Part shown: positions 32,472 to 64,000 of the stretch, in pieces
How positions within the stretch are numbered: position 1 is the first letter of the stretch
Layout: the number at the start of each line of letters is the position of its first letter
Assembly: GCA_021323675.1 (NCBI GenBank)
Contig: JAJPKP010000086.1
Location: 62,001 to 126,000, forward strand
Length of the DNA stretch: 64,000 nt
Direction: 5' to 3'
Source of the DNA: Pseudomonadota bacterium
GTDB taxonomy: Bacteria > Desulfobacterota > Binatia > Binatales > Binataceae
Notes under the pieces: model-generated
Database searches by the model: none
Told to the model about the DNA's origin: nothing
Seen by the model: only the letters and a program-made list of their open reading frames with translations
Position numbers and translations under genes: made by a program

Positions 32472-35400
32472 TCACGGCTCGGCTTGACGCGCAAGGACGG
32501 AGCACACGAGATCGCATTCAGCGCGAAAAGCGGGGAAAAGTTCCGCGGCTTTCTCCAGCGTCTTGTCGCGCGCCGCCTGATCGATGGCCGCGGCCATCTC
32601 GAACATCCGCCTGGCCCCGAAAGTCCCCGCGGAACCCTTCAGATTGTGGGCGACTCGCGCGATCGTGTCGCTGTCTTTCGCATCCAACGCCCTGCTGATT
32701 TGTTCCACCCCTTTGATCGTTTCGTCGCGGAAGAGGCCAACGAGTTCGCGCAGGAGTTCATCCCCTTCCTTTTTGAACCCCGCGACGGCTTCCGGATCGC
32801 ATACGTCTTCAAAAGGTCGCGACGGAGAGGGCGACGGCGCGGACGAGAAGCCTTCGGGAGCCTTCGCTGCGGCAGGCGGCGCAGCCTCGCCTTTCTCCGA
32901 AACCTGCAGCACCGGGGGCGCGGCCGCCGGTGTCGAACCGTTCGCTCTTTTATCGGTCGCACTCGCCGGGGAAGGCACTTCGGACGCGGGCGCGGAGGCC
33001 TGGGGAATCATCTCCGCCAAAGTCGCATCGAGAACCTCTTCGGTGACCGGTTTGCTGATATAGCCATCCATCCCCGCAGCCAGACACTTTTCGCGGTCGC
33101 CCGGCAGCGCGTGGGCGGTCATGGCGACGATCCTGGTGCGCCGCGGAGCTTCCTCGCTCTGCCTTATTCGGCGAGTGGCTTCGTAACCGTCCATTTCAGG
33201 CATCTGGCAATCCATGAAAATCAGGTCATAAGCCTTGCGGCTTGCGGCCCGCACGGCCTCGATACCGTTGGCCGCCAGGTCGACCTCGACACCGAGCTTG
33301 TTGAGCTGCAGGCGGGTGACTTTCTGATTGAGGGGATTGTCTTCAACGAGCAGGATATTGAGTTTTTGCCCTTCGAGCGGCCTGAATTTGCGGACTCGGG
33401 GAGCTTTTTCAGCGGAGCGGCCGCCCGCTTCTTCGACGCTCAGTGCCGCGGCGAGCGTGTCGTAGAGAAGCGATTCCGGAACCGGCTTCATCAGCCAGCC
33501 CGCAATCTTGATCTCCTTTGAGAGTGCGGCGTATTCAGCGCGCGTTCCGGCGGACGACGCGAAGACCATAATCGGACGTGGTATCGTGGTTTCCGCAAGA
33601 ATTCGTCGCGCCAGCTCAACCCCGCCTACTTCGGGCATCACCACATCGATTATCGCGACCTGATACGGTTCGGCCCGCGTGCTCCTGAGAATGACCAGCG
33701 CTTCCTCCGCCGATTGCGCGGTGGTAGGCCGCATGCCCCAGGCCGAGACCTGGCGTGCCAGGATCTGGCGGCTGTTCGCATTGTCGTCCACGATGAGCAC
33801 TTTGGTCCCGCGCATCGTCGCGAACCGCTCGGAGGCCGGCTTGCTGGTGTCGATCTGCTTGCCAAGCTTGAGGGTGAACCAGAATGTCGATCCTTTCCCC
33901 GGCGTGCTCGAGGCGGCGATCGTGCCATGCATCGCATTAACCAACTCGTGCGCAATCGAGAGGCCGAGACCGGTTCCTCCGTAATGCCGGGTCGTTGATG
34001 CATCCACCTGGGTGAACGCGCGGAAGAGCAGATGTTGCTTTTCCTTGGGGATTCCGATTCCGGTGTCGCGCACCTCGAAACGCAGCACCGCATCCTTCGG
34101 CGTCTCAGACAGCTTGCTGATCGACACCCCGACCTCGCCGTGCTCGGTAAACTTGACGGCGTTGCTGAGCAGGTTGACCAGAATCTGCCTGAGGCGCCCG
34201 GGGTCGCCGCGCAGACGGCGAGGAACGTCCGCGTCGATCGAGACCACCACCTCGAGACGCTTGTGGCGCGCCTGGTCCGCAACCTGCTCGACGGCGCCTT
34301 CCACCACGTGGCCCACGTTGAAGTCGGCCTCTTCGAGCACCAGCTTGCCCGCGGCAATCTTGGAAAAATCCAGGATGTCGTTGACCAGCGACAGAAGCGC
34401 ATTACCGCTCTCGCGCACATCGCGCGCAAATTCGCGTTGCTCGCTGTCAAGCTTCGTGTCGAGCAGAAGCCCGGTCAGTCCGATAATCGAGTTGAGCGGC
34501 GTGCGAATCTCGTGGCTCATATTGGCGAGAAACTCCGACTTGAGCCGGGCACCCTCCAGTGCCGCGTCGCGGGCAGCGGCCAGTTCCGCCTCCAACTGCT
34601 TCTGCTCGCTGATGTCCTGAGCCATGACCGACAGGCCGATCACCGTGCCGGCGGAATCGACGATCGGAGATTGCGTGAGCACGACGCTGATAGAGTGGCC
34701 ATCCTTGTGCAGCCGGGTGGCCTCGAAGCGTTCGGGCCTGCCCGACTTGAACACCTGGTCGGCGTGGCGAACCATTTCCGCACGCTGGTCAAGCGGCACC
34801 AGCAGCGCTCCGCTGTGGCCGATGATTTCGGCGCCGCTGTAGCCGAAAAGCCCTTCCGCAGCCGGATTCCAGCTCGTGATGGTCAGATCGCGGGTCTCGC
34901 TAAAAATCGCCTCGCCCGATGAATCGACGATCGAGGCCAGAAGCGAGCGCTCCTTTTCGGCGCGCTTGAGCTCGCTGACATCGCGAATGGTGACCAGGAT
35001 CTGCTTCCCTCCGCCCTCGGCCCGTTTGAAGGCGGAGGTATTCAGCGACACCGGTACCTCCTGGGCGCCGCGAGTCAGCAGGAGCAGTTCGGCGCCGTGC
35101 ACTCCGCCTTCTTTCCAGGTGCGCTCGATCAATTGCTCGACCTCGGCAATCTCGGAAAAGAGCGCCGGCAGCCTGGTGCCAATGAGCTCATCGCGGCGGT
35201 AGCCGGTCAGAGCGGCCGCCCGCTCGTTTGCGTCCGTGAGCAGCAGCTCGCGATCGCATACCAGCAATCCATCCGGAGACGCCTGCACCAGGCTCGTGCT
35301 GTATTCGCGCTCTTCGCGGAGGGTGGCTTCGATTCGCCGCTGTTCGGTTACATCGCGCGCTACTCCGAAAATTCCGCCTGGTTCGCCCTTCCGGTAGAAG

Positions 35401-37352
35401 ATCGATGCGTTGAAAGATATCGGAACTTCTTTTCCGCTTGCGGAGCGCAGCAGCAGCGCGGCGTTGGTGACGAATCCTTCGGCAAAAGCCCGCTTGACGG
35501 CGGCGAGGGCGGCGGCCGATTCCACAAAGTACGACTCGAACGGGCTGCCGATCAGAATTTTCTTTGGAACTTCGGTCAACCGCGCCATCTGTTCGTTGGC
35601 TTCGACGATGCGCAGCTCCTTGTCCACGGCGATCATTGCATCCACCGAGGACTCGAACAGGCCGCTGGTGTATTCCTGGGCTTCGCGCAGATCCGACTCG
35701 ATCTTTTTGAGCTGGGTGATGTCGCGAAGAATTCCGGAGAGCCCGATGAGATTGCCCCCGATATCGTAGATTCCCGATGAAACGATCGAGACGTCGATCA
35801 ACTCTCCGTCCTTGCGCTTAAGCTTCACCTCGATCCGGGGCAGAGATTCGTGGCGGCGCGCACTTTCCATCTGTTGGGCAATTGACGCCTCGGCGAAGGC
35901 GCGCGTCTGCTCGACATTGTAGAGAGCGGCGGTTTGGCCGATCGCCTCGCTCGCGCTGTAACCCAGCAGTTTTTCGGCGCCACGATTCCAACTGGTGATT
36001 CGGCCGTCCGTGTCCAAGCTCACAACCGCGTCTTCCGTAGAGGAAACGATCGCCGCCAGCAGGGCCTGTTCGCGCGCAGCCGCCTTGCTTTCGGTCAAAT
36101 CGTGCATGATGTTCGACATGCCGATTACGTTTCCAGCACCGTCGAAAATTGCGGAAATCGTGAGCGACAAATCCACCATGCACCCGTCCTTGCGACGCGC
36201 GGGCACTTCGAGATGCCGGATTACGGTCCCGGGATTGGTGTGCAGCGCCGTGAGGTCTTCTTCCAAGAGGCGCTGAGCGTGGCTTTGAAGCTCGGGCGGA
36301 ACGTACAGGTCGAGAATGGTCTTGCCGATTGCTTCGTGCGCGGAAAATCCGAAAATTCTCTCCGCTCCACGATTCCAGGTCATAATGCGAAAATCAGTTC
36401 CGAAACTGACAATGGCCTCTTCGGAGCTCTCAACGATCGCGGCAAGCATCGCCTGTTCGCGTTGCGCACGCCTGAGACCCGTCACGTCGCGAAAGACCTG
36501 GAATATTCCGATCGGCTTTCCTTCACGGTCATAGATGCCGGAGACCACCAGCGAGATGTCTATCGGTTGCCCATTCTCGCCCGGAAACGGGACTTCAAAC
36601 TGATGGAAGATTCGCTGTCCCGACCGCAACGCCACCACGTCCTCGGCGGCCTCGCGGGAAATTCGCTCTTTCAGGTGCGCAGGGAGCATCTTCTCGAGCG
36701 GCATCCCGATTACTTCGGACGCTTTGAGGCCCAGCAGCTTTTCGGCACTGCGATTCCATCCGATGATCTTGAGATCCAGCGAAACGGCCGTAATGGCGTC
36801 CTGGGACGACTCGACTATCGCGGCGAGCCGCTCCAAGTCGTGCTCTCTGCGCATCTGCTCGGAGACATCGCGCGCGATTACCGAGATGCCGGCAGGCTGC
36901 GAGCCGGAGTTGTGAATGGCCGAAACAAAAAAGGCTACCTCCAACAGCTCGCCGTCCTTGCGCTTCACGGCTGAAACGAAGTCGAGCGAACGCGTCGGGC
37001 CGCGGCGAATCTGGTCGAGTCCTTCCTCGAACCGGGTTCTTGATTGCGGACCGTCCCTGGCAAAGACCTCGGCCGCGCCATGTCCGATCGCCTCCTCCGA
37101 ACTCAGGCCGAATAGCCGCTCGGCCCCCCGGCTCCAGGTTACGATGCGTCCATCGAGCGAAAGACTGACGATGGCGGTATCAGTGCTTTCAGCGATGGCC
37201 GAAAGATGCGCTTGCGTTTTTCGGCTGTGCTCGAGGCGGTCGGATTGTTCGGCGAGGGTTTGTTCGAGGGCCTTCAACTGGCCTTCGAGCGTCGCGATGC
37301 GAGCGTGCAATTCACGTTCGCGCGCATTGCCGTTCTCGATGGAATTGACCAT
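32472..37352 (-). CDS. giant hybrid sensor histidine kinase: 7 PAS - HisKA - HATPase - REC - REC - HPt
   Basis: seven PAS repeats (ESSxDAIxSxxxDxxIxxWNxxAExLxGxxxxEaIG pattern), SHEIRTPLNSIIG, GTGLGLSIAHELV, two receiver domains, HNLKGSAGTFGA. Confidence 0.95.
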   Translation of the reverse strand: MVNSIENGNARERELHARIATLEGQLKALEQTLAEQSDRLEHSRKTQAHLSAIAESTDTAIVSLSLDGRIVTWSRGAERLFGLSSEEAIGHGAAEVFARDGPQSRTRFEEGLDQIRRGPTRSLDFVSAVKRKDGELLEVAFFVSAIHNSGSQPAGISVIARDVSEQMRREHDLERLAAIVESSQDAITAVSLDLKIIGWNRSAEKLLGLKASEVIGMPLEKMLPAHLKERISREAAEDVVALRSGQRIFHQFEVPFPGENGQPIDISLVVSGIYDREGKPIGIFQVFRDVTGLRRAQREQAMLAAIVESSEEAIVSFGTDFRIMTWNRGAERIFGFSAHEAIGKTILDLYVPPELQSHAQRLLEEDLTALHTNPGTVIRHLEVPARRKDGCMVDLSLTISAIFDGAGNVIGMSNIMHDLTESKAAAREQALLAAIVSSTEDAVVSLDTDGRITSWNRGAEKLLGYSASEAIGQTAALYNVEQTRAFAEASIAQQMESARRHESLPRIEVKLKRKDGELIDVSIVSSGIYDIGGNLIGLSGILRDITQLKKIESDLREAQEYTSGLFESSVDAMIAVDKELRIVEANEQMARLTEVPKKILIGSPFESYFVESAAALAAVKRAFAEGFVTNAALLLRSASGKEVPISFNASIFYRKGEPGGIFGVARDVTEQRRIEATLREEREYSTSLVQASPDGLLVCDRELLLTDANERAAALTGYRRDELIGTRLPALFSEIAEVEQLIERTWKEGGVHGAELLLLTRGAQEVPVSLNTSAFKRAEGGGKQILVTIRDVSELKRAEKERSLLASIVDSSGEAIFSETRDLTITSWNPAAEGLFGYSGAEIIGHSGALLVPLDQRAEMVRHADQVFKSGRPERFEATRLHKDGHSISVVLTQSPIVDSAGTVIGLSVMAQDISEQKQLEAELAAARDAALEGARLKSEFLANMSHEIRTPLNSIIGLTGLLLDTKLDSEQREFARDVRESGNALLSLVNDILDFSKIAAGKLVLEEADFNVGHVVEGAVEQVADQARHKRLEVVVSIDADVPRRLRGDPGRLRQILVNLLSNAVKFTEHGEVGVSISKLSETPKDAVLRFEVRDTGIGIPKEKQHLLFRAFTQVDASTTRHYGGTGLGLSIAHELVNAMHGTIAASSTPGKGSTFWFTLKLGKQIDTSKPASERFATMRGTKVLIVDDNANSRQILARQVSAWGMRPTTAQSAEEALVILRSTRAEPYQVAIIDVVMPEVGGVELARRILAETTIPRPIMVFASSAGTRAEYAALSKEIKIAGWLMKPVPESLLYDTLAAALSVEEAGGRSAEKAPRVRKFRPLEGQKLNILLVEDNPLNQKVTRLQLNKLGVEVDLAANGIEAVRAASRKAYDLIFMDCQMPEMDGYEATRRIRQSEEAPRRTRIVAMTAHALPGDREKCLAAGMDGYISKPVTEEVLDATLAEMIPQASAPASEVPSPASATDKRANGSTPAAAPPVLQVSEKGEAAPPAAAKAPEGFSSAPSPSPSRPFEDVCDPEAVAGFKKEGDELLRELVGLFRDETIKGVEQISRALDAKDSDTIARVAHNLKGSAGTFGARRMFEMAAAIDQAARDKTLEKAAELFPAFRAECDLVCSVLARQAEP

Positions 37353-48949: not shown

Positions 48950-49015
48950 ATGCCCAACTCCGATCGGCGATTTCCGGCTTCCGGACGACCTCTTCGCGCG
49001 CGCGGATCGGCGGCA

Positions 49016-50533
49016 ATGCGCTCTGAGGCGGCATTCACAACTCGTCCTGCCGGCGAAGTCGTCATCATCGGGGCCGGCCCGTGCGGCCTCACCGCGGCCT
49101 ATGAGCTGTGCAAGGCCGGCGTTCGGGTGCTCGTGCTCGAGCAGGATCCAAAGACGGTCGGCGGGCTTTCCCGCACCGTCGAGTACAAGGGATTTCGTTT
49201 CGACATCGGGGGTCATCGATTCTTCTCCAAGAACCCCCAAATCGAAGAGCTGTGGACGGAGATAGGCGGGGATCGGATGCTGCGGCGGGAAAGAAAGTCG
49301 CGAATCTTCTACCGCGGACTTTTGTTCAAGTATCCGCTCGAAATCATCGACTCGCTGAAGAACCTCGGCGCGATGGAATCGATCGCCTGCATCGGCAGCT
49401 ACCTCAGATCGAGGCTTGCTCCCGCGCGCGAGGTGAAAACCTTCGAGGATTGGGTGGTCCGAGCGTTTGGACGCCGGCTCTACGAAATTTTCTTCAAAAC
49501 CTACACGGAAAAGGTCTGGGGCATTCCCTGCAACACCATCAGCGCCGACTGGGCCGCTCAGCGTATCCGGGGCCTCTCGGTTTCAGCCTTGATTCGGGCA
49601 GCCCTGCGCTGGCCGGGAAAGGATCAACCGATCATCAAGACCTTGATCGGGAACTTTCGCTATCCGCCGCACGGACCAGGCGAGATATGGGAGATTCTCG
49701 CGGCCAGGATTCAATCAATGGGAGCCAGGAACCTGATGGGCGAGCGGGTCGTCACCCTCGAACGATCGAACAATCGCATCCGCGCGGTGATCACCGAAAA
49801 CCGCTCCGGAACCAGCCGCCATCCCGGCGACTTCTTTCTTTCGACGATGCCGATGCGGGATCTGATCCTGGCGATGGATCCGCCCGCTCCGCCGGAGATT
49901 GTCGAGGCTGCTTCCGGCCTGCGCTACCGGGACTTTATCACGGTCGCGCTGATTCTCGATCGCGCGGAGGTATTTCCGGATCAGTGGATTTACGTGCACG
50001 ACCCGGACGTCAAGGTCGGACGCATCCAGAACTTCAAGAACTGGAGTCCTGACATGGTCGCCGATCCGCGCTTCACGGTTCTTGGCCTCGAATACTTTTG
50101 TTTCGACTCGAGCACGATGTGGCATGAAAGCGACGAGAATCTGATCGCGATGGCGCGGGACGAACTGGTCCATCTCGGACTGGCCGATTACAAGTCGATC
50201 GTCGATGGGGCAGTCGTCCGCCAGCCCGCCGCCTACCCAATCTACGACAATCATTATCAGGACAGCGTCAGGACCATCCGGCGATTTCTGGAGTGCGAGG
50301 CAGTCAACCTGCAGCTCGCCGGAAGAAACGGAATGCACAAGTACAACAATCAGGACCACGCGATGCTGACGGGGATGATGGCCGCGCGGAACATCCTGGG
50401 AGGAAACTACGACCAGTGGCGCGTCAATTCCGACGCGCTTTATCTGGAGGAGGGAGAACCCGAGGAGACCGGCCTGCGCCTCACGCCGATCAGCGTGGCT
50501 CCGGACGAACTGGCGCCGCCAAAGGCGGGTTAA
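49016..50533 (+). CDS. NAD(P)/FAD-dependent oxidoreductase (amine-oxidase / UDP-GalP mutase-like)
   Basis: VVIIGAGPCGLTAAYELCKAGVRVLVLEQDPKTVGGLSRTVEYKGFRFDIGGHRFFSKNP; ATG 49016. Confidence 0.88.
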   Translation: MRSEAAFTTRPAGEVVIIGAGPCGLTAAYELCKAGVRVLVLEQDPKTVGGLSRTVEYKGFRFDIGGHRFFSKNPQIEELWTEIGGDRMLRRERKSRIFYRGLLFKYPLEIIDSLKNLGAMESIACIGSYLRSRLAPAREVKTFEDWVVRAFGRRLYEIFFKTYTEKVWGIPCNTISADWAAQRIRGLSVSALIRAALRWPGKDQPIIKTLIGNFRYPPHGPGEIWEILAARIQSMGARNLMGERVVTLERSNNRIRAVITENRSGTSRHPGDFFLSTMPMRDLILAMDPPAPPEIVEAASGLRYRDFITVALILDRAEVFPDQWIYVHDPDVKVGRIQNFKNWSPDMVADPRFTVLGLEYFCFDSSTMWHESDENLIAMARDELVHLGLADYKSIVDGAVVRQPAAYPIYDNHYQDSVRTIRRFLECEAVNLQLAGRNGMHKYNNQDHAMLTGMMAARNILGGNYDQWRVNSDALYLEEGEPEETGLRLTPISVAPDELAPPKAG

Positions 50534-50542
50534 ACGCGCGAA

Positions 50543-51385
50543 TCATCCGGGCGCCTGCGAATGGCAGGCGCGGATGAAATCTTCAACGCCTGCGCGCCAG
50601 TGCGGCAATTCGACGCGCGGCTCTCTGGATGTCGTCAGCGGGGAGAATGCGGGCCGCCGTGCCACGGCGGGAAAGTCGCGCAGCGAGACCCGTTCGACAC
50701 CCGCACGCACGCCGAGCGCGCTTAAGATCAATTCGACTATCTCCAGCCGCGACGCGGTTCCGCTTCCGGCCAGATGGCGAAGGCCATAGTCGCGGTCGCG
50801 GATTATCGCCGCGATCGCACGCGCCAGATGCGGAATATAGGTGGGCGATCCGAATTGGTCGTCAACAACCTTCAATCGCTCGCGCGAAATCGCGATGTCG
50901 CGCATCGTCGTCAGATAGTTTCTGCTCTTCTCGTCGTAAAGCCACGCGGTTCGAACGATGAAATGGCGAGGATTCGCCTCGGCAACCGCCAGCTCGCCTT
51001 CGAGTTTGCTTTTTCCGTACACCGAGAGAGGATTGGGCTGGTCGCGCTCCTCGTACGGCCGCCGGCTGGTCCCATCAAATACGTAGTCGGACGAAAAGTG
51101 GACGATTGCAATTTCCGCGCGCGCGGCGGCGCGCGCGAGGATTCCCGGACCAATCGCGTTTACGCGGTATGCCTGCTCCGCGCGGTCCTCGGCCGCATCG
51201 ACGTCGTTGAATGCGCCGGCATTGATTAGCAGGTCGGGAGCGTGGCGTTGAATCGCCCGCTCCACTGCGTCGGCGTCGGTGATGTCGAGATCGCGATGCG
51301 CCAGAGTCGAAAGCCGATGCTCGGAAAGGGCTCCGGCCAGGGCGCGCGCAAGGCGCCCTTCGCCGCCTGTGATGAGTATCTTCAT
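50543..51385 (-). CDS. rfbD: dTDP-4-dehydrorhamnose reductase
   Basis: ILITGGEGRLARALAGAL, NAGAFNDVDAAED, VHFSSDYVFDGTSRRPYEE, SVYGKSKLEGE. Confidence 0.94.
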   Translation of the reverse strand: MKILITGGEGRLARALAGALSEHRLSTLAHRDLDITDADAVERAIQRHAPDLLINAGAFNDVDAAEDRAEQAYRVNAIGPGILARAAARAEIAIVHFSSDYVFDGTSRRPYEERDQPNPLSVYGKSKLEGELAVAEANPRHFIVRTAWLYDEKSRNYLTTMRDIAISRERLKVVDDQFGSPTYIPHLARAIAAIIRDRDYGLRHLAGSGTASRLEIVELILSALGVRAGVERVSLRDFPAVARRPAFSPLTTSREPRVELPHWRAGVEDFIRACHSQAPG

Positions 51386-51942
51386 CGCGCGTGGCGCCCC
51401 CCGGGCAGAAGATCGATCACCTCATCCAGCCTCGGCGCGATCGCATCTTTTTCGGAAAGGACAGGGTCCGGCACCGGCCATCGGATCCCGATCGCGGGAT
51501 CGTTCCATGCGATTCTGATCTCTTCCTGCGGGCGGTAGAGGTCGCTGGTTTTGTACTCGACTTCAGCATGGTCGCTGATAACGCAGAAACCGTGCGCGTA
51601 GCCTTCGGGAATGAAACACATGCGCCGGTTCTCGGCGGAAAGCTCTACCGACACCCAGCGGCGGAAGGTCGGCGAATCCTTTCGTATATCGACGGCCACA
51701 TCAAAGATGGCTCCGTGCAGGACGCGAACCAGTTTGGCCTGGGGATGACCGCGCTGCGCGTGAAGTCCGCGGATTACCCCGAACGTCGATCGCGAGTGCG
51801 TATCCTGAACGAAGTGCGCGGTTATACCCGCATCGCGAAACTTCTGCTGATGATACGCCTCGAACAGAAACCCCCGGGCATCGGTGAAAATTTCCGGAAT
51901 GACGATTACGACACCGGGCAGTTCAGTGGCGACGAACTTCAT
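51382..51942 (-). CDS. rfbC: dTDP-4-dehydrorhamnose 3,5-epimerase
   Basis: DARGFLFEAYHQQKF, GVIRGLHAQRGHPQAKLVRVLHGAIFDVAVDIRKDSPTF, IPEGYAHGFCVIS. Confidence 0.95.
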   Translation of the reverse strand: MKFVATELPGVVIVIPEIFTDARGFLFEAYHQQKFRDAGITAHFVQDTHSRSTFGVIRGLHAQRGHPQAKLVRVLHGAIFDVAVDIRKDSPTFRRWVSVELSAENRRMCFIPEGYAHGFCVISDHAEVEYKTSDLYRPQEEIRIAWNDPAIGIRWPVPDPVLSEKDAIAPRLDEVIDLLPGGRHAR

Positions 51943-51948
51943 CGGCCT

Positions 51949-53007
51949 TCACCTTCCTTCATGCCCGGATTGAATGCTCGCGCACCACCGGCGATTCGTA
52001 AGGTACCAGCGAACCGTTCGCTCGAGCCCATCGCGAAAAGCGGTGTGCGGCCGCCATCCCAGTTCGCTCCGGATCTTCCCGTTGTCGATTGCGTACCGGC
52101 GATCGTGGCCCGGGCGATCGGGAACAAACTCGCGCAACTCGTCGTAGCGGCGCACTCCCTTTGCGCGCAGGGCCTGGTTCGAGGCGGCGGCAAACTCGGC
52201 TTCGAGTATCTCGCAGACCGTTTCAACCACTTGCAGATTCGTCCGCTCGTTTTCACCGCCGATGTTGTATCTTTCTCCGACCCTGCCCCGAAACAACACG
52301 GCCAGCAGCGCCTCGCAGGCATCCTCGACGAAAAGCCAGTCGCGAACGTTCAGGCCGTCGCCGTAAATCGGCAGCCTGCGGCCCTCGATCGCATTCAGTA
52401 CCATCCGCGGAATGAGCTTCTCTGGATGTTGATGGAAGCCGTAATTGTTGGAGCAGTTCGCAATCAGCACCGGAAGATCGTAGGTGCGATAGTAGGCGCG
52501 AACCAGATGATCCGCCGCCGCTTTCGACGCCGCATACGGCGAGTTCGGCGCATAGGGTGTGTCCTCGCGAAAGAGCCCGTCCTTTCCGAGCGAACCATAG
52601 ACCTCATCTGTCGAGACTTGCAGGAACCTGAAGCCGGGATCGTTGCGATGCTTTTGATAGCGAAGGACTGCCTCAAGCAGCGAGAGGGTTGCGATTACGT
52701 TGGTTTCGACGAAGCCTCCCGGCCCGGCGATCGAGCGATCGACATGGGTCTCGGCGGCGAAGTTGATGATCCATCGGGGCGGATGGCGCCGCAGGAGGTC
52801 ATCGACGATCGCGCGGTCGCCGATGTCTCCGCGGACGAACGCAAAGCGCGGATTGCTCGCCGCATGAGCCAGGTTTTCCAGAGAGCCTGCGTACGTAAGT
52901 TTGTCCAGGACCACCACGTTCGCCGCCGACGCCGCCAACGCATGGCGGACGAAGTTCGAGCCGATAAACCCGGCTCCACCGCAAACGAGAATGATGTTGG
53001 AATCCAA
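51949..53007 (-). CDS. rfbB: dTDP-glucose 4,6-dehydratase
   Basis: ILVCGGAGFIGSNFVRH, NFAAETHVDRSI, FLQVSTDEVYGSLG, YAASKAAADHLVRAYYRTYDLP. Confidence 0.96.
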   Translation of the reverse strand: MDSNIILVCGGAGFIGSNFVRHALAASAANVVVLDKLTYAGSLENLAHAASNPRFAFVRGDIGDRAIVDDLLRRHPPRWIINFAAETHVDRSIAGPGGFVETNVIATLSLLEAVLRYQKHRNDPGFRFLQVSTDEVYGSLGKDGLFREDTPYAPNSPYAASKAAADHLVRAYYRTYDLPVLIANCSNNYGFHQHPEKLIPRMVLNAIEGRRLPIYGDGLNVRDWLFVEDACEALLAVLFRGRVGERYNIGGENERTNLQVVETVCEILEAEFAAASNQALRAKGVRRYDELREFVPDRPGHDRRYAIDNGKIRSELGWRPHTAFRDGLERTVRWYLTNRRWCASIQSGHEGR

Positions 53008-56862: not shown

Positions 56863-58005
56863 TTGCAAACGCTCAGGATCCTTTGGATATGCGGTGCGCG
56901 ATTCGCGGGAGGGGCTGAGCGTGTGTCGATGCAGATACTCGGCCTCATGCGCGAGCGCTCGCACACAATTGGCGCAGTGCTGCCCGCGCAAAGCGATCTT
57001 CGCCGCCACGCCGCTTTCGCGAATTCGGTGTACACCGCCAGTTTCCGAGGCCCGCTCGACGTTCGCTCGGTCGCGGCGATAATTCGCGCGGTCCACGATT
57101 TTCATCCCGACATCCTGTTCGCCACAACCCCCGATGAATGGGTGTGGTCGTGCCTGATTCCGCGAAGGATCACCGGCGCCGGGCTGGTTCTCGTGCGCCA
57201 TATGTCGCTTCGGCTCGCACCCGCGGTTCGATGGCTCGCGAACCGGCGTGCGGATGCGGTGGTGGCGGTGAGCGCGGCGGTCCGAAGCGCGCTGATGGGC
57301 CGCTTCGGAGTCGCGCCCGATCGCATCCACGTGATTCACAATCCGGTCCGGTTTCCGATTCGCGATTGCGTTCCCTCCCCGATGGAACGCTACGAACTCC
57401 GCCAATCGCTCGGACTCGGGACGGACGGGAGATGGCTGGGCTTCTTTGGCGGCAACGATCCCCTCAAAGGCATCGAGGACGTGATGGAGGCGGCGCGGAT
57501 GATTCGAAGCCGCGGCATCGACCTGCGGCTTTTGGTTTGCGGGCGGGCGCGCCGCAAGGATTCGATTACCGAACTTGCCGCACGCCACCAGCTTTCCGGT
57601 TTCGTGCACGACGGCGCCAACCCCGACGAGATCGAAGATGCCCTGGGCGCGGTCGATGCCGTCGCTATGGCGACGAACAAGAGTCTCGGCGAAGGGCTGC
57701 CGCTGATCGCGCTTGAAGCTATGGCGCGCGGAACTCCGGTTGCGGGCTACGCAACCGCAGGCATCATCGATGCCCTCGGCGAGCACGAAGAAGGCGGGCT
57801 GCTCGCCGAACCCGGCAACCCCACCAGCCTCGCGCGCGCTCTGGAAGCGATTCTCGCCGATGCTGACCTGGCGGACCGCATCGCGCGACGGGGACTCGAG
57901 CGCGCGCGCAGCCTCTTCGACCCGGCGCTCGCGGCCGATCGTTACGAGCGCTTGTTTCTGGAAATAGCTGAAAGAAGCCGTACTGCTCACCGGTCGAAAA
58001 GCTAG
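56863..58005 (+). CDS. GT4 glycosyltransferase
   Basis: ILWICGARFAGGAERVSMQIL, VSAAVRSALMGRFGVAPDRIHVIHNPV, ALEAMARGTPVAGYATAGI; TTG start in ORF track. Confidence 0.9.
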   Translation: MQTLRILWICGARFAGGAERVSMQILGLMRERSHTIGAVLPAQSDLRRHAAFANSVYTASFRGPLDVRSVAAIIRAVHDFHPDILFATTPDEWVWSCLIPRRITGAGLVLVRHMSLRLAPAVRWLANRRADAVVAVSAAVRSALMGRFGVAPDRIHVIHNPVRFPIRDCVPSPMERYELRQSLGLGTDGRWLGFFGGNDPLKGIEDVMEAARMIRSRGIDLRLLVCGRARRKDSITELAARHQLSGFVHDGANPDEIEDALGAVDAVAMATNKSLGEGLPLIALEAMARGTPVAGYATAGIIDALGEHEEGGLLAEPGNPTSLARALEAILADADLADRIARRGLERARSLFDPALAADRYERLFLEIAERSRTAHRSKS

Positions 58006-60290
58006 AAAACGGGCGAGAGAACCTTTTCCCTCTCCGCCAGAGGCGAGACCTGCTCGGCGAACAATCGCTCGAATACCGGGCACGTTCGGATCAGTTCGTG
58101 CGGCGCGCCGTCCCCTACCACTCGCCCTTCGTCCAAAACCACCACCCGCCGAAAGCGAATCACCGTAGCCAATCGATGCGTCATCACGATCACCGTGCGG
58201 CGGGCCAGCCAGGGTTCCATTCGGGCGAAGATTTCCTGCTCGGTTTCGCTGTCTACCGCACTGGTAGCCTCGTCCAGCACCAGCACCGCGGGGTCGCGCA
58301 CGATCGCGCGCGCAAGAGCTATTCTCTGGTACTGCCCGCCCGAAACGTTGTGGCCGCTCTCGGCCAGGCGCGCGTCAAATCCGTCGGGAAGCGCCGCGAT
58401 GAAGCGATCGAGGCCGGCCAGAGCGGCCGCGTCGCGAATTTGTTCCGCGCTGGCATCGAACGTCCCGTAGCGGAGGTTATCAAGGATAGAACCGGTGAAG
58501 ATGAACGGTTCCTGCTCGACGACGCAGACTGCCCGCCGCAATTGCGATAGCCGCGTGTTCCGGACATCAACGCCATCGAGCGTGATGCGCCCGCTTGTCG
58601 GATCGAAGAAGCGCACCAGCAGATTGGCGATCGTGCTCTTGCCGCCGCCGCTTGCCGCCACCACCGCGACGGTTTCGCGCGGCGCGATCGCGAGATGAAA
58701 ATCGCGAAGCACGGTTCGGCCGGACGGATAGCGAAAATTCACCGCCTCGAAGCTAAGCGCGCCTTCGACCGGCGTACGCAGCGCCACGCTGCCATCGCGT
58801 TCCGCCTCGGGAAGGTCGATAATCTCGAAAACGCGCTCCGCGGCCGCAAGCGCCTGCTGCAAAAGGCCGTGAACCTCGCTGATCCGCCGAAGCGGCTCGA
58901 CCGTCTGCACCGCATAGAGGCAAAAGGCGAACAAGGCACCCGCGGTCTCGCGGCCGATCGCCACCTGGGTCGTTCCATACCAGGCGACGGCGAGCAGCGC
59001 GGCGCAGGTAATCGCCCAGACCCCGGTGGTCATCAGCGCGAGCCAGAACTGGCTTCGCATCACATGGTGCCGATAAAGAGAGTCCTTCGCTTCAAACCGC
59101 CGCTGCTCAGCCTGTTCGGTCTGAAACCCTTTGATAACGCTGAGGCCGGATAGTTGCTCGGTCACCGCCGCGCTCAGCTCGCCAACTTCGCGTTGCGCTT
59201 CTGCGCTGCGGCGCCTGACGAATGCCCCGCAGTAACTTAGGATCGCCGCGACCGGCGGTCCGACCAGCGCGATCATCGCCGCCAGCCGCCAATCGAGCCG
59301 CACCAGCATGAACAACGCGCCGATCAGAACGAAGCTCTCGCCAATTCCGCGCCGCAGGATTTCGCGGACGAACTGGCTCAATGCTCCGGCGTCATTGAAC
59401 AGCCGCGACATCAGCTCGCCGACCTGGAAGCGGCGAACCGAAGACAGCTCGACCTCCAACAGCCGCCGCTGCGCGCGGTCGCGCAAATGCTGCACGAAAT
59501 GCTGGTTCAGGCTTTGCAACACGTACTTGGACGAAAACAGGCCGATCACGAGCACGCCCGCGGTCAGGCCCGCCTGGGCCGTTAGTTTTGCGAGCGCCTG
59601 ATGGTCACCGGTCCGCAGCGGTCCGTCGGCCCACAGCTTCGCGATCCAGGTCAGATAGATCTGGGCTCCGCCGAGCGCCGCAAGGCTTAGGCCGATCAGC
59701 AACAGATGCCCGCGATAGCGAGCGCACTCCGCGACCAGCCGTGTGAAGATGCGGGCGGGGGGAACGCCGTTTGCGGGCGCTTTTTCGTCTCGAAGCCCGA
59801 GCGAGGCCGGCAGCGTCACGAAAAACCGTCGCCAATGCAGCACGGTGTCCCAGTAAAACTTGCGCAACCAGCGCCGCGACTCGCGATCGTGCGTGCTGCG
59901 CAGCAGAAGCGATACCAGCCGCGCGGTGCTGCGGAGCGACTGCGCCGCCAAATCGGCCCCGAGCTTGCCCCACGTCCAGACCTGCACCATCACATGACTC
60001 ATGCCGCGCTGCTTGCACGCGCTCAGGCGCTTGTGCCCATCGGTCACGATGAACCTGCCGCCAAGCCGGACGACGCCGATAGGCGGAAACACCGCGCCTG
60101 CGTCCATTGCGGCGCGATACTCGATGATCTTGTCCGGCGCGTGAGTTTCACTCAGCAAATCGATCACGTTTCCGATCGGGACGGTCATGGTCTCGAACTC
60201 GGCCAGCTCTCGATCGAAGCAGTCGAGGCTGTTCTGCTCGTTCGCCTCCGGCCGGTTGATGGGTGCTTCACGCAAGCTCGACAACTTCAA
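58002..60290 (-). CDS. ABC exporter (MsbA-like, TMD+NBD) with N-terminal ParB/Srx-like domain
   Basis: N-term FPPIGVVRLGGRFIVTDGHKRLSACKQRG; ABC TMD; AASGGGKSTIANLL Walker A, VSGGQYQRIALARAI signature, VLVLDEATSAVD Walker B. Confidence 0.9.
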   Translation of the reverse strand: MKLSSLREAPINRPEANEQNSLDCFDRELAEFETMTVPIGNVIDLLSETHAPDKIIEYRAAMDAGAVFPPIGVVRLGGRFIVTDGHKRLSACKQRGMSHVMVQVWTWGKLGADLAAQSLRSTARLVSLLLRSTHDRESRRWLRKFYWDTVLHWRRFFVTLPASLGLRDEKAPANGVPPARIFTRLVAECARYRGHLLLIGLSLAALGGAQIYLTWIAKLWADGPLRTGDHQALAKLTAQAGLTAGVLVIGLFSSKYVLQSLNQHFVQHLRDRAQRRLLEVELSSVRRFQVGELMSRLFNDAGALSQFVREILRRGIGESFVLIGALFMLVRLDWRLAAMIALVGPPVAAILSYCGAFVRRRSAEAQREVGELSAAVTEQLSGLSVIKGFQTEQAEQRRFEAKDSLYRHHVMRSQFWLALMTTGVWAITCAALLAVAWYGTTQVAIGRETAGALFAFCLYAVQTVEPLRRISEVHGLLQQALAAAERVFEIIDLPEAERDGSVALRTPVEGALSFEAVNFRYPSGRTVLRDFHLAIAPRETVAVVAASGGGKSTIANLLVRFFDPTSGRITLDGVDVRNTRLSQLRRAVCVVEQEPFIFTGSILDNLRYGTFDASAEQIRDAAALAGLDRFIAALPDGFDARLAESGHNVSGGQYQRIALARAIVRDPAVLVLDEATSAVDSETEQEIFARMEPWLARRTVIVMTHRLATVIRFRRVVVLDEGRVVGDGAPHELIRTCPVFERLFAEQVSPLAEREKVLSPVF

Positions 60291-61189
60291 AGCCTCGCCA
60301 TCCGCGGCACCATCGACTTGCCCGCGAGACGTTCGACGATCGCGGCCGGCGCGAGATCCGGCAGCCTCAGCGATTCTCGCGAGACGAAGAATGACTGCTC
60401 GAGCGCATAGCGCCCCTCAAGAACCGCATGGGGAACCGCGTCGGTGAACACAAGCCAGCTCGTACCCGGCGCAAACCGATGATGGAACTTCGGACAGCCC
60501 GCTTGAAACGCCCTGTCGCGCTTCATCGCGTCATGCAGCCGAAGCATCGCTCGATCGAAGGGCGATCGGTCCGGCAGAGCCAGGCCCAACGACCGCCCGA
60601 CCGCGCTCAGTCGCCCGACCCAGGGAGAATCGGCCTCGGCGATGGCACCTTGCGCCAGGGCGCGAAACCGCTGGTTATCCACGAGCAGATGCATGGGATC
60701 CGACGTTACCCACAGGCGCTCGCGTTCGGGATTGATGTTGGTAAAGAAGCGCAGGATTCGCGCGCCGTTGGATGGGCGGTTCGGGTACGCGTCCAGATGG
60801 AGAAGGTCGTTGCGTTCGCGCACGGGCAGATTACGTCCCCGTTCCTCCATCGGGCGAAAGCTGGCCAATTCGATGCGCCACGTGCCGGCGTAGGGGGCCA
60901 GCAGGGCCGCGCACATTTCGATGACGCGTTCGCTGTAGCGCCTCAAGGCATCGCGGACCGCAATGCTCGACGCGCCCGCCATCCCTCCGAGCGCGCCCGT
61001 TCGCGGCGCATACGAGACGTTTTTGTGCCGTAGCGCGGTGTCCGGCACGCTCATCAGGACCGCCCGGTCGGACTCATCGACCATGAGTCCCGCGGCTTCG
61101 AGACAGACTATCTCGCCCCGTTCCAGCCGATCGCAAACGTCGGCGAGATTTGAGGAAGGCCGTTCGACAACTGATCCCGAGACAGACAC
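60287..61189 (-). CDS. kdoO: Kdo hydroxylase (KdoO family, Fe/2-oxoglutarate-dependent)
   Basis: RERNDLLHLDAYPNRPSNGARILRFFTNINPERERLW with HxD, downstream VPHAVLEGRYALEQSFFV; next to lptF/lptG. Confidence 0.85.
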   Translation of the reverse strand: MSVSGSVVERPSSNLADVCDRLERGEIVCLEAAGLMVDESDRAVLMSVPDTALRHKNVSYAPRTGALGGMAGASSIAVRDALRRYSERVIEMCAALLAPYAGTWRIELASFRPMEERGRNLPVRERNDLLHLDAYPNRPSNGARILRFFTNINPERERLWVTSDPMHLLVDNQRFRALAQGAIAEADSPWVGRLSAVGRSLGLALPDRSPFDRAMLRLHDAMKRDRAFQAGCPKFHHRFAPGTSWLVFTDAVPHAVLEGRYALEQSFFVSRESLRLPDLAPAAIVERLAGKSMVPRMARL

Positions 61190-61195
61190 CGCGAG

Positions 61196-62323
61196 TCACT
61201 TTTCCTCGCCCATGAGGAAAATCCCCAGCGCCAGGCTGCCGAACATGAAGTTCGGCAACCAGGCTCCGAGCCATGGCGGGAGCAATCCGGATTTTCCGAA
61301 CGACATGGACAGAGCCAGCATCAACCAATAGCCGAACCCGGCCCCAAGCGCGGCCGCGATGTTGCGGGTGTATCCGCCGTGCCGCGGCAACGGATCGAGG
61401 CTGATCGCGAAGCCGATGGCGGCAAGAATCAGACACGAAAATGGGAGCGCAAATTTCAGATCGCGAAGATTCAGGTACCGGCGCGGATTCAGGCCCCGAT
61501 GACTCAGCGTCAGGATAAAGCGGTTCAACTCGGACAGGCTCAGCTCTTCAGGATTTACGCTCAGCGGCGCATCGAAATCCGCGGGCGACAGGTTGAGAGT
61601 GGCGTCCGCCCGTCCGGGTTCCGCCGCCAGTTCGTCTCCGCTCAACTCGAGCGAGCGGCTGTTGACGAAGCTCCAGCCCCTGCCATTCCAGTTTGCGCGC
61701 TGCGCCTGGGTAATCGAACGCAGGTCGGCGTTCGCGGACAACTTGAGAATCGTAAGCCCGCTCAATTCCTTTCGCGACGGATCATAATTGGCGGCGAAGA
61801 CGAAGGCGTCGCGGGTGCGAACCCAGGCTTCACGGCCGCGCGCAGCATGCTGCTTGCGCAGCCGAGTGTTGAGCACCATCTGCGCCCGGGTGTTTGCCAC
61901 CGGCACGATAGTCTCGGAGATTACAAAATCACTCACCGTTACGAGCATGGCGATTGCGAAAAGGGGAGCCGCCATCTGCAGCCGGCTCACACCCAGCGCC
62001 TGCATCGCGACCACTTCGCCCGTCCGGTTCATCCTCGCGAATCCGAACATCACGCCCGCCAGCAGCGCCACGGGCAGAAGCTTGCTGACGTTGCCGGGAA
62101 CGCGCAGCAGCAGGTACTGGATGCCGGGAAGGACGGAACTTCCCGCCGCGATCAGGTTGAACCGGTCGGCGGTGTCGGCCAGCAGGTGAATCACGGCAAA
62201 GGCGGCGATCGCGAGCAGGAACGGCTCGACTACCGCGCGCAAAAGCAGGCCGAACACGGTAGGCGGCGCGGCCCGCCGCATCAGCTTGCGGGCCGTATTC
62301 GCGGTGAAAAAGTTCCGATCCAT
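61196..62323 (-). CDS. lptG: LPS export permease LptG-like (YjgP/YjgQ)
   Basis: VPGNVSKLLPVALLAGVMFGFARMNRTGEVVAMQALGVSRLQMAAPLF; conserved C-terminal TM block. Confidence 0.92.
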   Translation of the reverse strand: MDRNFFTANTARKLMRRAAPPTVFGLLLRAVVEPFLLAIAAFAVIHLLADTADRFNLIAAGSSVLPGIQYLLLRVPGNVSKLLPVALLAGVMFGFARMNRTGEVVAMQALGVSRLQMAAPLFAIAMLVTVSDFVISETIVPVANTRAQMVLNTRLRKQHAARGREAWVRTRDAFVFAANYDPSRKELSGLTILKLSANADLRSITQAQRANWNGRGWSFVNSRSLELSGDELAAEPGRADATLNLSPADFDAPLSVNPEELSLSELNRFILTLSHRGLNPRRYLNLRDLKFALPFSCLILAAIGFAISLDPLPRHGGYTRNIAAALGAGFGYWLMLALSMSFGKSGLLPPWLGAWLPNFMFGSLALGIFLMGEEK

Positions 62324-63567
62324 CTTCGAAGCCGGCCGTAGCCGACATTCTTGTCATCCAGATCGAGCCCTCTGGTGAAGAATGGCGCGATGGCTGCGCC
62401 CGTAAAAATCAGGTCTGGAATCGCGGCACCCAGGTAACTGCCGAGCACTCGCGATTGCGCAAGCGCCTCTCCGCCCCGCATTAAAACGTAGTAGCAGAAG
62501 AATAGCGACAGCGCTAAGGCGAAGCGCTCGGAGCGCCCGCCCCGAACCGGCGACAACCCCAGGATGATACCCAGCAGGGCGAACGGAAAGATTGCGAAAG
62601 GCACCGTCCAGCGCTGGGCGAGTTCGGTTTCCGCGGCGATATCCGGATGCCCCGAGCGGCGGGCCTTCGCTGCTTCGGCGCGGAGCGCCCAGGTGCTTAC
62701 CTCCATCGGAGTAGGCGTGGTAAGCGCGGGCTCCTGCTTTGGAGCCGCCTTGATGTCGTATGTGCCAAAACGCACCACCCGGCGCGAGTCCTGCGCTTCC
62801 TCGGAGAACATCCAGCCGTCCTCCAGGCGAAGTGTAACGCTCAGCTCGTTGGGATTCGGAATGAGCAGGCCGCTGTGCGCAAAAATCCAGGTCCTGGATG
62901 CGGGATTGCGATTGTCCGAAATGAGCACATCGACGAGCCGGTCTCCGGGGGGCTCGATCCGGTCAAAATAGACCACCATCCCGTCCAGCCCCGCGTTGAA
63001 GATTTTTTCGGGCAAGCTCGCAGCCAGCTTGGTCCGCGCGATTTCCAGAAGCTCGCCTCGCAAGCTCGCGTTCGCCGCCGGCACAATTTTCAGCGCGAGC
63101 GCCATCTCCAGCGGATAGAGCGCGACCGCCAAAATCAGCACCGGCAATGCCATCCGCGCGATGCTGACGCCGCAGGCGCGCGCGGCAATGATCTCAAGGT
63201 CTCCGCACAGCCGGCCGATTCCGAGCAGCGTCCCCAGCAGCACCGCCATCGGCAAGCTAAGCGCCAACAGTGTCGGGACCAGATGAACCAGCAGGCCGAG
63301 CACCGACAGCAACGGCACGCCCTCGTTGACGATAAGGTCGACCAGCTTTAGAAGCCGCACGACGATGAGCGCCAGGGTAATCGCAATCAGGCTGATGCCC
63401 ATCGGCACCGCGACCTCTCGAGCGACATACCGATCGAGAATTCCGGGAACCGCGGATCGCAGCACGAGGAGAAGGCGCCGCGAGTACGTCGCGTTCGAAA
63501 ATTTCTCGAAACTGATCATTGGAACCGCGTCAGCTTCCCGTTTCCAACCCCGTAAACCCGCGCGCAA
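62281..63567 (-). CDS. lptF: LPS export permease LptF-like (YjgP/YjgQ)
   Basis: ILDRYVAREVAVPMGISLIAITLALIVVRLLKLVDLIV; LSLPMAVLLGTLLGIGRLCGDLEIIAARACGVSIARMALPVL. Confidence 0.92.
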   Translation of the reverse strand: MRAGLRGWKREADAVPMISFEKFSNATYSRRLLLVLRSAVPGILDRYVAREVAVPMGISLIAITLALIVVRLLKLVDLIVNEGVPLLSVLGLLVHLVPTLLALSLPMAVLLGTLLGIGRLCGDLEIIAARACGVSIARMALPVLILAVALYPLEMALALKIVPAANASLRGELLEIARTKLAASLPEKIFNAGLDGMVVYFDRIEPPGDRLVDVLISDNRNPASRTWIFAHSGLLIPNPNELSVTLRLEDGWMFSEEAQDSRRVVRFGTYDIKAAPKQEPALTTPTPMEVSTWALRAEAAKARRSGHPDIAAETELAQRWTVPFAIFPFALLGIILGLSPVRGGRSERFALALSLFFCYYVLMRGGEALAQSRVLGSYLGAAIPDLIFTGAAIAPFFTRGLDLDDKNVGYGRLRRWIGTFSPRIRPAS

Positions 63568-63587
63568 CCCTGCCCTCTTTTCGACCG

Positions 63588-64000
63588 ATGGATACGCCCG
63601 CTAAGGTTGCGGATGCGGACGAGATATTCGGTCTCGGGCCGCCGAATTTGACTTCGATGAAACTTCGCCGTTGGGCTCGCCGAACCAGATTTTTCATCCT
63701 TGAAAGGCTTCTGCTCCCGATTGCGATTGTGCCACTCAAAATCCTTGTGTGGTCGTGGCGCACGCGCGGTCCGGACGAAGCGGCTCTGCGCGATGCGCTG
63801 GCGACGCGACCCTTAATTGTTGCCACCTACCACGGGATGTTCCTTCATCTTCTGGCCTACGCGCATCTTTCCGCCCCATCCGGCAGACCTCTGGTCGCGT
63901 TGGTGACTCCGAGTCTCGATGGACAATTGTTGGGTAGTGCGTTGCGGTACTTCGGAATTGAACACATCATGGCTCAGCCGGGCAAGCGCGCGGTCGCGGC
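63588..64000 (+). CDS. DUF374/LPLAT-type lysophospholipid acyltransferase, truncated by window end
   Basis: my translation from ATG 63588: PLIVATYHGMFLHLLAYAH...LVALVTPSLDGQLLGSALRYFGIEHIMAQPGKRAVA; absent from ORF track because it has no stop in the window. Confidence 0.75.
   Translation, partial: MDTPAKVADADEIFGLGPPNLTSMKLRRWARRTRFFILERLLLPIAIVPLKILVWSWRTRGPDEAALRDALATRPLIVATYHGMFLHLLAYAHLSAPSGRPLVALVTPSLDGQLLGSALRYFGIEHIMAQPGKRAVA

Follow-up and report, generated by a model that had tools for sequence, protein, structure and literature searches.

ParB-fold domains are otherwise familiar from chromosome segregation and from serine kinases. SbnI and SerK act on free serine, and SbnI depends on both E20 and D58 to work as a kinase (Verstraete 2018, cited in PMC9641203). 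ParB-CTPase folds also occur joined to other functional domains. A 2025 survey (PMC12704722), in its main text, gives HTH, HNH, UPF0020, DUF3850, methyltransferase, CBS and ASCH as partners, and ABC transporters appear there as an analogy and not as fusion partners. An N-terminal enzyme-fold domain on an ABC exporter has a precedent in the PCAT and HlyB systems, where a cytosolic C39 or degenerate C39-like domain (CLD) handles the cargo; the degenerate form, as in HlyB, tethers it (PMC8277102). The gene described here places a ParB/Srx-like domain in front of an exporter which, like MsbA, is an ABC half-transporter (TMD and NBD) encoded among lipid A/LPS export genes. It differs from PCAT and HlyB in its predicted fold and in its locus, which is one for a glycolipid and not for a peptide, and from SbnI and SerK in being fused to an exporter in an LPS locus. 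Both halves are of known kinds; the novelty is in how they are combined and in the tie to a second LPS gene set. In the open literature searched, no account of a fusion between a ParB domain and an ABC exporter was found.

The window is the whole stretch of DNA that was analysed, 64,000 nucleotides in length. The features of the locus are as follows.

58002..60290, minus strand: ParB/Srx-domain ABC exporter gene, 762 aa, TTG start (ORF, Pfam, orthologues)
59961..60221, minus strand: predicted ParB/Srx-fold core, residues 24-110 (SbnI profile match, ParB_N in members, hhalign)
60027..60041, minus strand: DGHKR loop, the predicted phosphate-binding loop of the fold, residues 84-88, invariant in 10/10
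59751..59960, minus strand: helical linker, residues 111-180, with invariant D113, Q117, H152 and W153
58893..59705, minus strand: ABC exporter transmembrane domain, residues 196-466 (Pfam ABC_membrane PF00664, E=1.8e-37)
58260..58709, minus strand: ABC nucleotide-binding domain, residues 528-677 (Pfam ABC_tran PF00005, E=1.3e-25)
60287..61189, minus strand: Kdo hydroxylase KdoO (PF11004, 9.4e-76), overlapping the exporter start by 4 nt
61196..62323, minus strand: LptG2, second-copy LPS export permease (5.4e-67)
62281..63567, minus strand: LptF2, second-copy LPS export permease (1.3e-75)
63519..64000, plus strand: DUF374 acyltransferase-like protein, running beyond the window end and read on L007:10520-11344
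56863..58005, plus strand: GT4 glycosyltransferase, which converges on the exporter gene and also adjoins the exporter in G028 and G018

The exporter gene is a stop-free reading frame of 762 codons on the minus strand. Its product starts with a domain of some 110 residues; the helical linker comes next, and then a complete ABC exporter half. KdoO, LptG and LptF lie upstream in the same direction, and the start codon shares 4 nt with the KdoO stop codon as TTGA. The first-pass annotation had described an uninterrupted frame of this length, with a ParB/Srx-like domain fused to a complete half-transporter, a 4-nt overlap with the Kdo hydroxylase gene and a position downstream of lptF-lptG. Each of these points was confirmed, with the strand now given as minus. 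The protein has the features of a type IV half-transporter by Pfam and alignment (TMD, and NBD with Walker A, Q-loop, signature, Walker B glutamate and H-loop histidine). Its Walker A (AASGGGKST) and signature (SGGQYQR) had been called slightly non-canonical, which is true of this protein, but both motifs vary among the orthologues. Given this variation, and with the glutamate of Walker B and the histidine of the H-loop both in place, these deviations have no special meaning. The genomic context makes lipid the putative substrate of the exporter.

The same genome has two sets of lipid A/LPS genes. On the same contig, past the window, L007:10520-18263 encodes DUF374, lpxL2 (lipid A acyltransferase), a PMT-type glycosyltransferase, lpxB2, kdtA2 and PAP2; these genes are upstream of LptF2-LptG2-KdoO-exporter. 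Another contig (C53) has a bamA/ompH/lpxB/msbA/kdtA/lpxK locus, and a separate lptFG pair is on C87. The exporter had been annotated as probably the LPS flippase or a modified-lipid exporter from its overlap with the Kdo hydroxylase gene and its place downstream of lptF-lptG. An MsbA-like sequence within an LPS locus speaks for the flippase. The housekeeping protein encoded beside bamA, ompH, lpxB, kdtA and lpxK is a clearer MsbA, with a score of 584.8 bits against the MsbA model compared to 390.4-391.4 for the window exporter. The model is the TIGR02203 equivalog with a curated cut-off of 602 bits, so both proteins fall under it, the housekeeping MsbA just below and the exporter (about 390) far below. 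Against solved MsbA, the housekeeping protein matches over its full length (410 bits) and the window exporter over a partial length (about 281 bits). In a tree of exporters, the window protein and its orthologues form one clade with 100/100 support, apart from the eight further exporter rows that were included from the source genome (two of which, L017 and L020, are nearly identical), and the genome's own MsbA falls outside this clade. The exporter transmembrane domain is matched at E<=1e-30 in only 14 of the 148 genomes of the class, ten of these being well-scoring orthologues. It is therefore very improbable that this protein is the housekeeping lipid A-core flippase MsbA with an extra domain. 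The duplicated lpxB, kdtA and lptFG genes and the better MsbA elsewhere place the window gene in a second, accessory lipid A/LPS set (lpxB2, kdtA2, lpxL2, lptF2, lptG2, kdoO). The earlier alternative of a modified-lipid exporter fits well with this assignment, as the exporter of that set.

The fusion of the N-terminal domain to the exporter occurs in eight other genomes, five from the same family (G020, G029, G004, G018, G028) and three from three other families (G092, G080, G087). It thus spans four families of the class with the conserved linker retained. In G029 the fusion gene runs off the contig end. In G087 the gene (L064:9165-11532) is broken by a frame change between the part with the N-terminal and transmembrane domains and the rest, which may be a sequencing error or a pseudogene. 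Relatives retain part of the organisation of the locus: the gene order LpxL2-DUF374-LptF-LptG-KdoO-fusion is found in G020 and G029, and KdoO-fusion in G004. In G080 and G087 the order is LpxB2-LpxL2-DUF374-fusion; LpxB2, LpxL2 and DUF374 are thus neighbours of the fusion in two further families (L063, L064). KdoO is present in 7 of the 41 genomes of the source family, all within the three genera that carry the exporter. Since the genome is a draft, a fusion created by assembly or sequencing was considered; it is ruled out in practical terms, with a negligible probability, by the eight further genomes, in four families, that share both the architecture and the conserved linker.

Outside of the class, the N-terminal domain profile matched only distant ParB-fold proteins in a sample of the phylum. 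A contig scan with the whole exporter protein returned only unrelated ABC transporters, mostly through the nucleotide-binding domain. As a separate observation, other families of the phylum have a group of proteins of about 360-400 aa whose ParB-like domain carries DGHHR or DGNHR and whose C-terminal part is long (L066-L073, L075, L078, L080).

The fold of the N-terminal domain becomes recognizable only when related sequences are used. A single-sequence Pfam search of the exporter (hmmscan) gave no ParB domain, even at E<=1, in which the protein also differs from the fusions in the PMC12704722 survey. A phmmer search of the PDB with the single N-terminal sequence gave no ParB match. Relatives were gathered by whole-genome searches into alignments of six and later ten sequences. 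Pfam ParB_N was detected in two of the six members (best 6.4e-4). In a profile search of the PDB, SbnI was the closest solved relative, matched at 4.1e-4 with six sequences and 3.3e-6 with ten. The profile also recovered chromosomal ParB and SerK-like proteins of the same phylum, which were named by reading their sequences, and hhalign gave probabilities of 94.6% against the SerK-like set and 94.8% against the ParB set. Therefore, the ParB/Srx fold assigned to the N-terminus in the first-pass annotation is well supported by profile and profile-profile matches: the domain search proposed there came back empty with one sequence but significant with ten. AlphaFold2 on the window sequence without an alignment gave poor models (pLDDT 45 and 50). 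The second, with a pLDDT too low for a fold search, has the element order H-E-E-H-E expected for the fold. Pfam found neither the canonical HTH nor the C-terminal dimerisation domain of ParB in the protein, the remainder of which is the ABC exporter.

Across the ten sequences F25, D26, D44, Y58, R59, P70, D84-G85-H86-K87-R88, W105, D113, Q117, H152 and W153 are invariant, and the DGxxR phosphate loop is present as DGHKR in each. D84, the first residue of this loop, aligns with SbnI D58. In contrast, the position of SbnI E20 is unconserved (E, A, S, T, D, T, L, R, V, V). Of the SbnI/SerK catalytic pair, only the D58 position is fixed, so the ligand loop has been kept and the known catalytic glutamate has not.

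The N-terminal domain is present in 10 of the 148 class genomes, and it strictly co-occurs with LpxB2. The same ten genomes have LpxB2 matches of 336-923 bits (45-100% identity) and no other genome of the class exceeds 246 bits. Under independence the probability of this coincidence is about 1e-15, which is only indicative since the genomes are related and the independent co-occurrence events are fewer than ten. Two genomes separate the domain from the exporter. The sibling species G001 has the exporter (L115:8550-10457), KdoO, LptG and LptF, without LpxB2 and without the N-terminal domain. Its exporter is nested among exporters that carry the domain; therefore, the domain was probably lost in G001. 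Conversely, G057 has LpxB2, KdtA2, LpxL2, GT9 and a free-standing N-terminal domain of 163 aa which adjoins a heptosyltransferase gene, and no exporter of this clade. Both assemblies are drafts, with a completeness of 96% and 90%, so the absences are provisional. Two Kdo/WaaP-family LPS-kinase proteins are encoded near the G057 domain (L051:4412-9312), one of 707 aa and the other of 591 aa with two matched stretches. Taken together, the fusion is uncommon among the 148 genomes and travels with the second gene set, and its N-terminal domain tracks the second lipid (lpxB2) and not the pump.

This distribution bears on the idea, raised in the first-pass annotation, that the domain gates flipping. 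The domain could be a sensor of a nucleotide (CTP, ATP or GTP) that gates the exporter. ParB-fold domains bind these nucleotides and frequently occur in fusions with other domains (PMC12704722). The DGHKR loop is invariant, and the domain is expected to be cytosolic since it is ahead of the transmembrane part with a conserved linker between them. However, a gate should follow the pump that it gates, yet the exporter of G001 is without the domain and the domain of G057 is without that exporter. The nucleotide specificity also cannot be read from the sequence. The gating idea is thus weakened by the tracking of lpxB2, and a nucleotide gate is rather unlikely, ranking behind a kinase among the rival explanations.

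The strongest rival, although also on the unlikely side, is that the domain is an active SerK/SbnI-fold kinase which phosphorylates the headgroup of the second lipid immediately ahead of its flipping by the fused exporter. Candidate substrates would be, for example, the disaccharide product of LpxB2, with the domain substituting for a second LpxK, or Kdo/hydroxy-Kdo. The closest solved relative is a serine kinase, and the position of D58, which is needed for SbnI activity (PMC9641203), is invariant. Exactly one LpxK was found in each of the eleven genomes checked, including all ten with lpxB2. In the source genome this sole LpxK shares a contig with the housekeeping msbA; therefore, the second set is without an LpxK of its own. 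Either one LpxK shared by both sets or a kinase role of the N-terminal domain would agree with the missing second LpxK. The association of the domain with lpxB2 rather than with the exporter, and the presence of LPS-kinase genes of the Kdo/WaaP family near the stand-alone domain of G057, also agree with a kinase. Nevertheless, the E20 position, which is also required for SbnI activity, is variable, a single LpxK could serve both lipids, and a further kinase would not be needed at loci that have WaaP-family kinases. The kinase suggestion of the earlier annotation is accordingly weakened at E20 and retained at D58. The bolder form, in which the domain is a new lipid A (or headgroup) kinase that replaces LpxK in the second pathway and couples phosphorylation to flipping, is more doubtful than either a kinase in general or a gate.

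The preferred reading, with a probability of about 0.4, is that the exporter is a dedicated flippase of a second LPS-like glycolipid, and that its N-terminal domain, probably an enzyme domain of SerK/SbnI type that has degenerated, recognizes or handles this lipid through the DGHKR loop. The presence of the second gene set, the co-occurrence with lpxB2 and the cases of G001 and G057 speak for it. The invariant DGHKR, D44, Y58-R59, W105 and H152-W153 were counted in favor of this role, as was the freedom at the E20 position. LpxB2, KdtA2 and LpxL2 would make the accessory lipid A/LPS-like glycolipid. The ParB/Srx-fold domain, on the cytosolic face of the membrane, may bind a phosphate-bearing ligand through DGHKR and act on the lipid before flipping, either by recognizing it or by passing it to the transmembrane cavity. 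The exporter would then flip the lipid across the inner membrane, and LptF2/LptG2 would carry it onward. The cargo could instead be another product of the locus. The degenerate domain of HlyB, described above, is the precedent for such a tethering role.

ParB-fold modules are increasingly recognized as general nucleotide-binding parts, and the literature searched gave no instance of one coupled to a membrane lipid exporter. If the domain does act on the lipid, it would be a ParB-fold protein that works in envelope biogenesis. Some members of the class seem to produce two molecules of the lipid A type, each with its own export parts, and these are a natural system for studying how one cell separates two LPS pathways.

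Two other regions of the window were read from the sequence. A FAD-dependent oxidoreductase/amine oxidase-like gene and dTDP-rhamnose genes (rfbB, rfbC and rfbD-like) are at 48950-53007, near the second LPS set. An ORF of 1626 aa with a coiled-coil-like start is at 32472-37352.
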